A DNA stretch of 21,234 nt. Origin: a virus. The notes beneath the pieces were generated by a model. That model saw only the letters and a list, made by a program, of their open reading frames with translations. It was not told where the DNA came from and did no database searches. The position numbers were made by a program, and so were the translations under genes. The stretch spans positions 1-21,234 of the IMG/VR virus record IMGVR_UViG_3300025890_000189, one strand, 5' to 3'. Below, piece by piece: positions 4,824 to 21,177 of this stretch (its first letter is position 1; every line of letters begins with the position of its first letter).

Positions 4824-7489
4824 GACGATTCAACCTCGTACTCAATTGCTTGTAGATGGAAAGGAGCAGCATCTGGCACTGTAATCTCAGGCACTACGTC
4901 AATACCCCAGCCTTTACCACCATTGTTGTCTTGTATAATGCCAGTTCTAACCTCAAAGGGTGTACCTAATGGGCTATCTACTGCTTGCCCAAAGTTCCTA
5001 ACAGGTACAGGGTTGCCGTCTATGTAAACACCAGCACTCTCGTACATGCGTAGGTTCATGCGATTAATGCGCTTCTCTCGCATAACATTATTAGCACTAG
5101 CCTTTGAGCTAGTGTTTAGTGGCATTGGTACAATCTTAGGCGTAAAAGTTAACCCGACCTCTAGGTTTAATGTACCGCCTGTAGACACTTCCTCTGCTGT
5201 TAATGTAATAGTACCTGTACCAGTAACGGTACGTTTTGCTAAGTTAGTACCATTACAAATTACACTCACCTCTGCATATCGCAAGTGTATGTCAGGAAGC
5301 TGCACTATTGTTGTAGCAGGGGGTGAAGGGGCAGCCACAGATACCTTGCTAGACGAATCTAACAAATGATCAAAAGACCAACGCTCTATAGAATAAACCT
5401 CTAAATCAGGCTGACCTGTTTGCGGGTAAGTAAACGCATTTACCATGTACAGTTCGTTCTTTACGGTAGATGCAGAGATTAGCTTGAGCTTGTTAGGGTT
5501 GCCGTTAGTATCAAAGTAACCACTGTTGGCGTTAGTCCAGCGTGTAAATCCATTAATATCTTGTGCGCGGACAGTATTAAGTACCGCACCATTACCATCC
5601 TGGTTGATAATGAATACCCAGTTAGAGTCCTCTGACGTTGTTCCAGACAGCACAGCCACATCTTTAGGCGTATCTATTAACTGCGAAGACAGCACGGATA
5701 TGTCATTAGACGTATAAGCGTCTTCATTAAAGCTATACACAAACTGTCTTAATGTCTGGCCGTTCTGGTCTACAAACAATGTGGCACCGTCTAGTGACTT
5801 AGCCTCTAAGTACAATGCGCCATGCTGCGTCTGCGCTACAGAAGTGACAGTAGATGGTGTATTACCCTTAATTAAGAACTCACCACCCGTAGTAAATACC
5901 TGTAGGCCACGGTCAGAGTTAATGTCTACGATCTCTGTCTGTATTCTGTTAGTCAGGGTGATAAAGATACCTTCATCGTCATCCCCTTCTTGGAAGTAGT
6001 AGTCAAAGAAGATTCCCGCCTTAGACGCAAAGATGCTTTGTATCTTAGACCTAGTACCACCTAACCATAATCTACCATCGTGGAATGTACCCATGCGTAC
6101 ATAGCCGCGTGTTGCGCTCCACACATCTTCTTTGCGTGGTGAGCCAGTCTGCACCTTAGTAAACAGTGTGGTGTTGTCCTGACCGCCTGTAGTTGGGAAT
6201 CCGCTAAACAACTCAAATGCTTTAGTAGACTCGCCGCTAATAGTGATTCTGTATGTGCGTATACCAGTCCTAACTACAGCAACACCCGTTTCACCAAACA
6301 CAGGCATTTCTTGCAGGTTGCGCCTAATGTTATGCACAGTCGATGAAATCTGATCAGCGTTACCATCACCAGCAAACGTAACGTTTTTACTTAACACGCC
6401 CTCGACATCTATCTGGAACGTATCACCGATCTCCCAGTTGTGACCGCTACCGTGATCTAGCTCTAGGTCTTGTATCTCGTCTACAGGTGTAGGACTTAGT
6501 GCGTCATCGTAGTCGAACTGCGGGATGTTCAAGAACGGTATGTTGTCTATCTGGAATATACTGTCATTGCCAGAGACTACTGTATGGCCGCTATTGATAA
6601 TTCTTTTTGATGGATGTTCCTCATGGAACACTAGCATGACGTTCTCTGTTTGCGCGTCACGCAACGTAGCTATCTCAGTAGACTTGTACGGCAGAGGCAC
6701 ATTGCCTACCAACACAGTATCAGTAGAGCCTGCATGTGGTATTCGGTAGAACGCCATGTTGCCGTATGAAGGGGTAGTGTCTGCACCGCCTGTAGCGACA
6801 CAGAGATAGTGCCGATCAGACTCAATGCTAAAGTCAAAGGTCTTAACGTCAGAGACTGCTGAAGTCTCAAACATCACGTTAAACTCACTCAGTGAGATTC
6901 TCTGCGCACCTAAGTCGCCCGTGTCACTCTGCCTAACTAACCGCACATAGGGCGTAGCGATAACGTCAGTAATCTTTACGCGGAACGACTGCTCTACAGA
7001 GTTAATCTGTATGGTCTGCTGTGTCACCCAAGTTGTGTTGTTGCTGCTAGTTTGCACTCGCAGATACGCTGTGTCTGTATTGTTTACAGTGAGCTTTACA
7101 TCCTGCACATCAATAAAGCGTATACCGTTAGTGGTGGTGCTCATATTGTAATGCGCTACAACGTACTCTGTTGCCCCTGTGCCGGACGTTCCAATGTTAG
7201 TGGTAGTCAGACCTACGGTAGCAGGGTTAAAGTCGTTTATATTGGCTGGTGTGCCGCCATTGGGCATTGTGGCAGTGAACGTACCAGTAACGTATGGCCC
7301 TATTTGCCGTAAAGCTAAATCAATATGCTCAGTACCTGGCCGTCTTTTAAGGCCACCCTGCGGCACAATAACTACATTGTCGCCAGTCTGTACGCCAGCA
7401 TAGTATTGATTAAGGTCTGTACGGCCCTTTAGTAGAGGCGATAGCTCACCGCTAGTAAAGCTGGCTTGCAGGAATTGTGACTCAGCCAT
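4820..7489 (-). CDS. Tail tubular protein B / tail nozzle protein
   Basis: The 889-residue product opens with the pattern FTSGELSPLLKGRTDLNQYY followed by GGLKRRPGTEHID, the N-terminal signature of the podovirus tail nozzle (T7 gp12, tail tubular protein B) and related stabilisation proteins. The body is beta-rich with many Thr, Val, Asn and Gly, as expected for a beta-propeller-like nozzle. T7 gp12 is about 790 residues, so this one is slightly long. The nozzle sits below the gp11-type adaptor and closes the tail tube until the host is met. The start ATG overlaps the stop of the tail tubular A gene (TAATG) and the stop overlaps the next start (ATGA), which shows tight coupling in the structural operon. 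Confidence 0.9.
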   Translation of the reverse strand: MAESQFLQASFTSGELSPLLKGRTDLNQYYAGVQTGDNVVIVPQGGLKRRPGTEHIDLALRQIGPYVTGTFTATMPNGGTPANINDFNPATVGLTTTNIGTSGTGATEYVVAHYNMSTTTNGIRFIDVQDVKLTVNNTDTAYLRVQTSSNNTTWVTQQTIQINSVEQSFRVKITDVIATPYVRLVRQSDTGDLGAQRISLSEFNVMFETSAVSDVKTFDFSIESDRHYLCVATGGADTTPSYGNMAFYRIPHAGSTDTVLVGNVPLPYKSTEIATLRDAQTENVMLVFHEEHPSKRIINSGHTVVSGNDSIFQIDNIPFLNIPQFDYDDALSPTPVDEIQDLELDHGSGHNWEIGDTFQIDVEGVLSKNVTFAGDGNADQISSTVHNIRRNLQEMPVFGETGVAVVRTGIRTYRITISGESTKAFELFSGFPTTGGQDNTTLFTKVQTGSPRKEDVWSATRGYVRMGTFHDGRLWLGGTRSKIQSIFASKAGIFFDYYFQEGDDDEGIFITLTNRIQTEIVDINSDRGLQVFTTGGEFLIKGNTPSTVTSVAQTQHGALYLEAKSLDGATLFVDQNGQTLRQFVYSFNEDAYTSNDISVLSSQLIDTPKDVAVLSGTTSEDSNWVFIINQDGNGAVLNTVRAQDINGFTRWTNANSGYFDTNGNPNKLKLISASTVKNELYMVNAFTYPQTGQPDLEVYSIERWSFDHLLDSSSKVSVAAPSPPATTIVQLPDIHLRYAEVSVICNGTNLAKRTVTGTGTITLTAEEVSTGGTLNLEVGLTFTPKIVPMPLNTSSKASANNVMREKRINRMNLRMYESAGVYIDGNPVPVRNFGQAVDSPLGTPFEVRTGIIQDNNGGKGWGIDVVPEITVPDAAPFHLQAIEYEVESS

Positions 7490-14493: not shown

Positions 14494-14626
14494 ACATATC
14501 CTCTATAAAGTCGTTTAACAAGTATAATACTTCTCGCATAGCAATGGCATCCCTATCCAAGAAAGCCTCTATAAACGCCTCTATAACCTCTGAATCAGTA
14601 TCGTCTAGCTCGTACTGCTCCCACAT
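14450..14626 (-). CDS. Small acidic protein, 58 aa
   Basis: The ATG at 14626 follows GAGG at a workable distance. The product (MWEQYELDDTDSEVIEAFIEAFLDRDAIAMREVLYLLNDFIEDMYDG...) is very acidic and probably one or two amphipathic helices. It overlaps the end of the upstream 68-residue gene by 22 bases and the start of the 53-residue gene by 44 bases, each in a different frame. I recognise no family. The acidic protein followed directly by a basic one is a pattern seen with paired partners, but nothing here proves that they interact. Confidence 0.6.
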   Translation of the reverse strand: MWEQYELDDTDSEVIEAFIEAFLDRDAIAMREVLYLLNDFIEDMYDGPESSTQAGEEG

Positions 14627-14811
14627 AACCAGTCCTCTAATATCATTTGTTTACATAATTCAATGTAGAATACGCTGTTTTTGTCGTTTAAGGTGCTTTT
14701 GAACTCAACCCCATCATCACTAAGGATAATGACGATATGGTCTTTAGAAGCGATTACAGTGGCTTCTAGGGCATCCTCTATATCTGGGTGGAGCTTTATT
14801 ATTTTACTCAA
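14605..14811 (-). CDS. Small protein, 68 aa, with uncertain start near an A9 run
   Basis: A frame of 68 codons starts at TTG 14811 and gives LSKIIKLHPDIEDALEATVIASKDHIVIILSDDGVEF..., a plausible small alpha/beta protein. TTG has no clear ribosome site here. Just upstream on the minus strand is an ATG (14830) that reads Met-His-Gln-Ala and then runs into nine A bases and a stop. One more A would join it in frame to this gene. Possible readings are a real TTG start, ribosomal slippage on the A run, or a homopolymer-length error or variant. The gene overlaps the next one by 22 bases. The function is unknown. Confidence 0.5.
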   Translation of the reverse strand: MSKIIKLHPDIEDALEATVIASKDHIVIILSDDGVEFKSTLNDKNSVFYIELCKQMILEDWLCGSSTS

Positions 14812-14872
14812 TTTTTTTTTGCCTGATGCATATATATACTACACGACACGCGCCTCGGAAGGGGGGGTCTAC

Positions 14873-14960
14873 TTATCCACAGCTTTTGCACAACTTTTTC
14901 CCAGCTTATCAACATGGTTATCCACAGACTTATGCACAGGTTAAGCACAGCTTATATACA
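14873..14960 (+). other. Array of phased DnaA-box-like 9-mers, candidate replication origin
   Basis: Eight 9-base sites in the same orientation begin at 14873, 14884, 14895, 14906, 14918, 14930, 14941 and 14952, so they are spaced 11-12 bases apart. Two are exact TTATCCACA (14873, 14918). TTTTGCACA (14884) and TTATGCACA (14930) fit the relaxed TTWTNCACA consensus. TTATCAACA, TTAAGCACA, TTTTTCCCA and TTATATACA have one or two changes. AT-rich sequence (a T9 run and ATATATATA, 14811-14840) lies nearby and could be the unwinding element. The origin call follows from known DnaA-box behaviour. The alternative is a binding array for the phage's own small terminase, whose gene ends at 15002. Confidence 0.7.
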
Positions 14961-15001
14961 CCTGTACATGCATACAGTACTGGCTATCCATACAGTGACA
15001 C

Positions 15002-20266: not shown

Positions 20267-20467
20267 ATGGACATCAACAAAAGCATCAACCACTTTATGG
20301 AAACCCAGAACTTCATCCAGGCTGACCTCAGCAGGGAGTCCAAGCTGCACCCCTCTACTATTAGTTTGATTAGGAACGGCCACCGTTCACCGAGCTGCGC
20401 GACACTGCAACAACTGGCTGACATGTTCGGCGTCAGGGTATCAGAGTTTATCGCGGCGGGTGAGTGA
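20267..20467 (+). CDS. XRE-family HTH regulator (Cro/CI-like)
   Basis: The 66-residue protein is essentially one helix-turn-helix domain: TQNFIQADLSRESKLHPSTISLIRNGHRSPSCATLQQLADMFGVRVSEFI shows the HTH_3 pattern, with the recognition helix around STISLIRNG. It has no C-terminal oligomerisation or autoproteolysis domain, so it is Cro-like in size. It starts at the first ATG after the divergent promoters, behind an AGGAG site. It is therefore likely to control this switch and perhaps the operator at 15359-15397. Its stop overlaps the start of the initiator gene (TGATG), so the regulator and initiator are made together. Confidence 0.88.
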   Translation: MDINKSINHFMETQNFIQADLSRESKLHPSTISLIRNGHRSPSCATLQQLADMFGVRVSEFIAAGE

Positions 20468-21177
20468 TGGATAAGCCATCGTACTACGCCATTCTGACTG
20501 CTGATGTCAGGTATGACAAAACCCTGAAGCCACTGGCTAGGTTGTTGTTCGCAGAGATTACGGCACTGTGCAACAAAGAAGGTTACTGCTGGGCCAGCAA
20601 CCAATACTTCGCTGACCTATATGAAGTGGACAAGACAACTGTGAGCGGATGGATAGGACAACTCAAGACCCGAGGATACATCACCGTACAACTGGAGTAC
20701 AAAGAGGGTAGTAAGCAAATCCTTAATAGGTATATAAAAATTAATGGGGAGGGTATAGACGAAATGATCAATACCCCTTTACAAAATGATGTATACCCTA
20801 TTGACCAAAAGACCAAAGTTAATACTACAGTTAATACTACAAAGAATATTACAGTTAATAGTATAGGTGACTTTGATTCTTTTTGGACGTTCTATCCTCG
20901 TAAAGCAGGTAAGGAAGCGGCCAGGAAAGCATGGGCAAAGCTACGACCTGATGAACATATCATGCAATTGATCCTTGATAACGTCAGGGAGAGGGTGGAG
21001 AAGGGTGAGTGGCGAAAAGATAACCAGTCATTCATCCTCCATGCCAGTACCTATCTGAACCAAAAGCGTTGGGAAGATGAGGTTCTTGATCAACAAACAC
21101 AAAAGAGAACTGACCCTGAATCTATTAAGTCGGTGTCCGTAATGGACAAACTGGTAGATAGATCATGGGCAGAATAG
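20467..21177 (+). CDS. Replication initiator / helicase-loader-like protein
   Basis: I place the start at the ATG at 20467 that shares bases with the preceding stop (TGATG); an in-frame GTG lies just before it. The 236-residue product has an N-terminal winged-helix-like part (about residues 10-80, with WASNQYFADLYEVDKTTVSGWIGQLKTRGYI), a low-complexity Asn/Thr/Val linker (about 116-132), and a C-terminal block FWTFYPRKAGKEAARKAWAKLRPDEHIMQLILDNVRERV...FILHASTYLNQKRWED. This order resembles lambda O and other DnaT-like initiators, with an origin-binding front and a helicase-contact tail. The linker is encoded by 12-bp tandem repeats that could be the origin itself. A partner helicase or loader gene may follow but is outside the window. 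Confidence 0.85.
   Translation: MDKPSYYAILTADVRYDKTLKPLARLLFAEITALCNKEGYCWASNQYFADLYEVDKTTVSGWIGQLKTRGYITVQLEYKEGSKQILNRYIKINGEGIDEMINTPLQNDVYPIDQKTKVNTTVNTTKNITVNSIGDFDSFWTFYPRKAGKEAARKAWAKLRPDEHIMQLILDNVRERVEKGEWRKDNQSFILHASTYLNQKRWEDEVLDQQTQKRTDPESIKSVSVMDKLVDRSWAE
20818..20865 (+). repeat. Four 12-bp tandem repeats inside the initiator gene, candidate iterons
   Basis: Four units of 12 bases follow one another: GTTAATACTACA twice, then AAGAATATTACA and GTTAATAGTATA. They encode Val-Asn-Thr-Thr-like residues. An inverted pair AGGGTATA (20750-20757) and TATACCCT (20792-20799) and AT-rich sequence lie just upstream. Lambda carries its origin as iterons inside gene O, so this is a reasonable origin candidate, but the repeat could be no more than a low-complexity linker. 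Confidence 0.6.

Follow-up and report, generated by a model that had tools for sequence, protein, structure and literature searches.

The stretch analyzed here, which we call the window, is the 21,234-base IMG/VR record IMGVR_UViG_3300025890_000189, from a phage described as marine. It contains an array of eight direct DnaA-box-like 9-mers between the gene for a 108-residue terS-like protein and the operon of the large terminase gene terL. Read on the TerL strand, the stop of the terS-like gene is followed by the array and then by a conserved core of about 58 bp (Table 1). The minus strand encodes TerL (phrog_2), the head-to-tail connector, the capsid and tail genes, and a Sak annealing protein, a YqaJ-type exonuclease, a Cro/C1-type regulator and an O-like replication initiator were found elsewhere in the window. 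Judged by these genes, the phage is T7-like in its head and tail genes, not in its replication genes, within this part of the genome.

Table 1. Positions of the features in the window (sequence or basis in the last column).
Feature	Position	Strand	Sequence or basis
Eight direct DnaA-box-like 9-mers (TTWTNCACA)	14873-14960	+	11-12 bp steps; shuffles; family comparison
Box 1	start 14873	+	TTATCCACA
Box 2	start 14884	+	TTTTGCACA
Box 3	start 14895	+	TTTTTCCCA
Box 4	start 14906	+	TTATCAACA
Box 5	start 14918	+	TTATCCACA
Box 6	start 14930	+	TTATGCACA
Box 7	start 14941	+	TTAAGCACA
Box 8	start 14952	+	TTATATACA
LexA-box-like palindrome	14962-14977		CTGTACATGCATACAG; enriched at the same place in relatives
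LexA-box-like palindrome	14980-14995		CTGGCTATCCATACAG; 18 bp from the first; same 16-mers at ~18-bp steps in relatives
Conserved core, C7 TTCCGAGG N14 TATATATATG..GC A9TT	14810-14867	-	112 distinct instances in relatives, heading the terL operon
orf68, first gene past the core in the terL operon	14605-14811	-	Conserved in relatives
TerL, large terminase, 486 aa	12875-14335	-	PHROG phrog_2, E 2.4e-12; 52% identity to BcepC6B TerL
terS-like protein, 108 aa	15002-15328	-	Putative small terminase by position; no family match
O-like replication initiator (phrog_270, HTH_36)	20464-21177	+	Profile matches; marks the likelier origin
3.7 tandem 12-mers (AGTTAATACTAC) inside the initiator gene	20817-20860	+	Rival origin iterons; 12-nt periodicity kept in relatives

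All eight boxes share one orientation, and their starts are separated by steps of 11, 11, 11, 12, 12, 11 and 11 bp. The consensus TTWTNCACA is fitted by four of the eight, two of which are exact copies of TTATCCACA. With up to one mismatch allowed, eight one-strand sites fell within 90 bp; in 400 dinucleotide shuffles of the whole window the maximum was four sites per 90 bp, which was reached in three shuffles. The whole window held 24 one-mismatch TTATNCACA sites compared with 22.1 by chance, so the total was not above chance. The excess over chance is the clustering of the DnaA-like boxes, not their total number, and the other non-coding gaps of the window contained no comparable box arrays. 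An earlier note on this DNA had described eight direct 9-mers at 11-12 bp intervals, including two exact boxes and two more fitting TTWTNCACA, and both descriptions were borne out. The span that it gave, 14811-14960, covers the array together with the AT-rich/poly-G core, an element distinct from the array and much more strongly conserved.

Additionally, we found two further repeats that the earlier note had overlooked. These are palindromes of the form CTG[TG]N8[AC]CAG, the only two in the window, and they adjoin the array on the side of the terS-like gene. Their layout agrees with that of gammaproteobacterial LexA sites, such as the uvrB site AACTGTTTTTTTATCCAGTA (PMC6015884).

In the TerL direction, the core consists of a poly-C run that varies in length, CCGARG, a variable segment whose length is nearly fixed, TATATATATG and A9TT, and the spacing from CCGARG to TATATATATG is near-constant across relatives. 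A scan of IMG/VR with the core pattern returned 118 stretches, all from this phage family, and TerL was found downstream of the core in every one long enough to reach it. The core marked every relative found and is a conserved non-coding element beside the terminase genes, as compared over 112 distinct instances. The position of the terS-like gene varies: it precedes the core in some genomes, including the window, and follows it in others. The core thus goes with the terL operon and not with terS. The first gene after the core differs between relatives, and the core stands directly before it whichever gene it is. Neither a sigma-70 promoter nor an intrinsic terminator was found in the core. 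The core is a candidate packaging start or terminus (pac, cos or the edge of a direct terminal repeat, DTR) or a control site of the late operon.

Two other identities of these elements were considered and rejected. An RNA element was rejected, as the core and the array matched no Rfam family and showed no sign of folding, and no packaging-hijacking satellite carrying the core but lacking TerL was present among the 118 core matches.

Variation of the array among relatives

Relatives were collected by scanning IMG/VR with the terS-like protein, TerL, the portal and the initiator, and several hundred loci were fetched. At least three DnaA-like boxes were present at 33 of the 112 core instances, 28 in the orientation of the window and five with the whole array inverted. 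LexA-like palindromes occurred at 39 instances, 15 of these alongside boxes, and neither element was found at 55. At these 39 loci (for example L041, L049 and L034), 16-bp palindromes of the CTGT-N8-ACAG architecture, in steps of about 18 bp, replace or join the DnaA-box array at the same place; the background rate was 0.015 per 200 nt.

Relative to the poly-C run, the boxes occupy constant positions, at about -14, -25, -37, -48, -59, -71, -82 and -94. The units keep TGTGNATAA with a free fifth base (G in 113, C in 38, T in 27 and A in 5 of 183 boxes), and the seventh base is T or A. As these 183 boxes were gathered by similarity to TTWTNCACA with one mismatch allowed, the unit variation is support and not proof. 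Because this variation matches the tolerance of DnaA for TTWTNCACA with base 5 free, which supports the DnaA-box character given in the earlier note, host DnaA, rather than some phage protein, is most likely the ligand of the array. As for the loss of spacing and consensus in close relatives, which the note had named as evidence against an origin, the result was divided: the arrays that persist keep their spacing and consensus, but many relatives lack the array altogether.

Comparison of relatives revealed that the type of array is independent of the terS-like protein. The terS-like proteins of L004, L005 and L006 are identical, and the palindrome is present in some and absent in others. Those of L033 and L041 are 97% identical, while one locus carries a DnaA-type array and the other a LexA-type array. 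In L009 and L012 versus L018 and L019, proteins of 92-94% identity occur with or without an array, and the array is absent from some relatives whose terS-like protein and TerL are both near-identical. Conversely, L033 has the array type of the window despite a different version of the N-terminal half of the protein. Because of this independence, the array is probably not the recognition site of the 108-residue protein. The pac/cos-type site that the earlier note had offered as a competing view fits the position of the array better than an origin does, but not in the form of a binding array for that protein, since the array type changes while the protein stays constant.

The array and packaging ends

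We lean tentatively, at a little below an even chance, towards the array being an accessory element that binds host DnaA and LexA beside a packaging start or terminus region. Terminase would start or finish packaging at the core (DTR edge, pac or cos), and the array would thus lie at the virion DNA end or immediately beside it; there, host DnaA, and also LexA, may bind the array. The bound proteins could form a nucleoprotein patch that helps to label the end, bend it or shield it while the DNA is processed or shortly after injection. The array would be useful and not essential, with lineages losing, inverting or swapping it.

This reading draws in part on annotated phages. These were searched with the consensus array, and the 44 best-scoring listed records were considered, with duplicates and microviruses left out. 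The array lay within 200 bp of a record end in 12 of these 44, compared with 0.32 expected; the records are related and perhaps represent about four independent lineages. In T7-like phages, TTATCCACA arrays were found inside exact direct terminal repeats of phiEap-1 (195 bp) and Shigella A7 (177 bp). The premise of the earlier note, that T7-like phages would not be expected to have clusters of this kind, was therefore wrong. Five T7-like records are cut elsewhere (permuted), and in these the arrays stand in the interval from terL to the first early genes. The same arrays also occur close to the ends in phages of Arthrobacter and Vibrio. No annotated phage sharing the core was recognized, the top matches of that search being box matches.

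Upon comparison with known systems, we found clear similarities as well as differences. The DTRs of the Studiervirinae phiEap-1 and Shigella A7 resemble the window in having TTATCCACA/TGTGGATAA arrays in a non-coding packaging region beside terL. In T7-like Yersinia phages, ligation-mapped DTRs of 190-224 bp contain 10- and 12-bp repeats and a variable poly-C run (PMC5923468), much as the window combines its array with a poly-C core; these are the fPS phages. The window differs from T7-like DTR phages in that its array precedes terL, any DTR is putative and its replication genes are not those of T7. In T5-like phages, the injection stop signal has been reported to contain repeats, palindromes and DnaA boxes (PMC13250531). 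There (also in the S131 region), DnaA boxes and palindromes stand in a long non-coding stretch at a control site near an end, a placement that the window would share. In T5, however, DNA entry stops at this site and A1/A2 are required, whereas no A1/A2-type genes were seen in the window. The closest named phage by TerL (52%), Burkholderia phage BcepC6B (Ryyoungvirus), shares a related TerL and a podovirus-type layout, but no box array or poly-C core is present in the first 3 kb or the last 3.4 kb of its record.

Several observations weigh against a packaging-end role. The array is absent at about half of the core instances. Contig ends at -27 to +51 of the core numbered eight compared with about 2.3 expected, a weak excess with no preferred base, and may be assembly breaks at homopolymers. 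Among 114 further IMG/VR contigs with such arrays, an unselected sample, the neighbors were mixed: terminase genes (small and large) and anti-restriction genes, and also RecE/RusA, helicase, initiator and integrase genes; arrays of this type are thus not tied to termini alone. We infer the terminus in this phage family, the binding of DnaA and the function of the array.

The ends of the family contigs are equivocal. Long contigs read through the core and map as circles, as do short-read assemblies of DTR phages (PMC10438801); this is also expected with headful packaging, with cos ends in replicating DNA or with no terminus here. The long contigs have no end-to-end repeats, and short-read assemblies collapse DTRs. 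As proof of cos or other fixed termini, the contig ends were ruled out because they formed no sharp peak.

In phages, clusters of DnaA boxes are often assumed by default to mark origins, as with Ori-Finder (PMC11512268). Here, the conserved position, the patterns of loss and exchange and the match to terminal repeats point to a packaging end instead. If host DnaA or LexA does act at the array, packaging or DNA entry would be linked to the replication and SOS state of the host, and the repeats of T7-like terminal repeats and the DnaA boxes reported in the T5 injection stop signal would share one explanation. It is a wider and rather doubtful possibility that unrelated tailed phages have independently set arrays of sites for DnaA or LexA, two abundant regulators of the host that would be interchangeable there, at the end cut by terminase; host proteins would coat this end as a general cap shaping packaging, injection or end protection. 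A literature search for box arrays beside phage terminases found no description, and the exchange of DnaA-type and LexA-type arrays at one site likewise appeared undescribed in the literature searched; repeat arrays in terminal or packaging regions are themselves known.

Alternative roles of the array

Among the alternatives, control of the late (terL-structural) operon survives best, although we regard it as unlikely. The core would serve as a promoter together with a phage factor, and through the array DnaA and LexA would tune late transcription, linking it to the replication and SOS state of the host. The position of the core ahead of the operon and its near-constant CCGARG-to-TATATATATG spacing suit this role, and E. 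coli uvrB is repressed jointly by DnaA and LexA (PMC6015884). The uvrB control region, with a LexA box and the DnaA boxes of DARS1, resembles the window in having sites for both proteins side by side; the window differs in its long tandem 11-12-bp arrays, its lack of uvrB and the packaging gene alongside. However, the core lacks a sigma-70-like promoter, the boxes are placed upstream instead of overlapping a promoter, poly-C and A9 would be unusual in a promoter, and some relatives keep A9TT with no open reading frame right behind it.

A decoy role is quite unlikely in our view. The many DnaA and LexA sites of a replicating phage would titrate both regulators and so curb host replication starts or raise SOS genes. 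Such a role would agree with sites for two host regulators that are interchangeable, free in orientation and dispensable, and with the comparable arrays in many phages and contexts. A decoy would not need a fixed distance to the core, yet the spacing is kept; each genome has only 8-10 sites, and the window's other gaps carry no such arrays.

The earlier note had proposed a DnaA-dependent replication origin. At such an origin, DnaA bound to the array would melt the adjacent TATATATATG/A9 stretch. The origin was not supported by our comparison, and we judge it distinctly improbable. The boxes do exceed chance, are phased at one helical turn and stand beside AT-rich DNA, like the direct boxes of plasmid and phage origins; such arrays also lie near the initiator gene in some single-stranded DNA phages. 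O-like initiators, moreover, use host replication proteins. However, the array is missing in about half of the family, including near-identical relatives that retain the core, it can be inverted as a whole relative to the AT stretch, and the initiator gene has its own tandem 12-mers. For these reasons the array is probably not an origin. In contrast to plasmid and phage origins, the locus has no initiator iterons; the 12-mers lie 6 kb away, and an origin within an O-type initiator gene is the lambda-like arrangement. The initiator gene with its 12-bp repeats is the likelier origin. The GC skew, a check named in the earlier note, turns where the genes change strand, and no turn of its own was seen at the array.

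Finally, a classical pac-type phased array bound by the terS-like protein itself would be in keeping with the adjoining terS-like gene in the window and with phased repeats suiting the ring shape of small terminases, but it is very improbable given the independence of array and protein described above and the location of the terS gene on the other side of the core in other genomes.

The terS-like protein and other observations

The earlier note had placed the array between the small and large terminase genes. TerL was confirmed, and the place of the 108-residue gene beside terL and its GRPKGS N-terminus, the two grounds for the other assignment, suggest a putative small terminase. A family search with this protein gave no match, and structure prediction produced a low-confidence helical model (pLDDT 67.5) with no match in the PDB. 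The protein is modular: upon comparison with L028, L033 and L041, its N-terminal half was found to be swapped among close relatives, while the C-terminal tail QRKRYDAGAISNDTD was kept.

A prophage host was sought and rejected. The sole genome match was a 30.9-kb contig (L109; DAOUSV010000002.1) in a metagenome-assembled genome of the Piscirickettsiaceae, and 62 other genomes of that order contained no TerL relative. This contig is a divergent relative, with a TerL of 86% identity and its own DnaA-box array and core; its host assignment is uncertain.

At least 114 unrelated phage contigs of IMG/VR (L271-L390) carried tandem TGTGNATAA arrays of three units or more, so the feature is common. In one contig, L397 (about 5195-5390), the unit of array and core is tandemly duplicated with the cores 127 bp apart, which may be a real duplication or an assembly chimera. 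Six relatives with the terS gene after the core (L403, L424, L429, L443, L476 and L488) share a further stretch of conserved non-coding sequence (around CTATATAGAGCTGAGAATCTGA), which lies some 150-200 bp upstream of the core.
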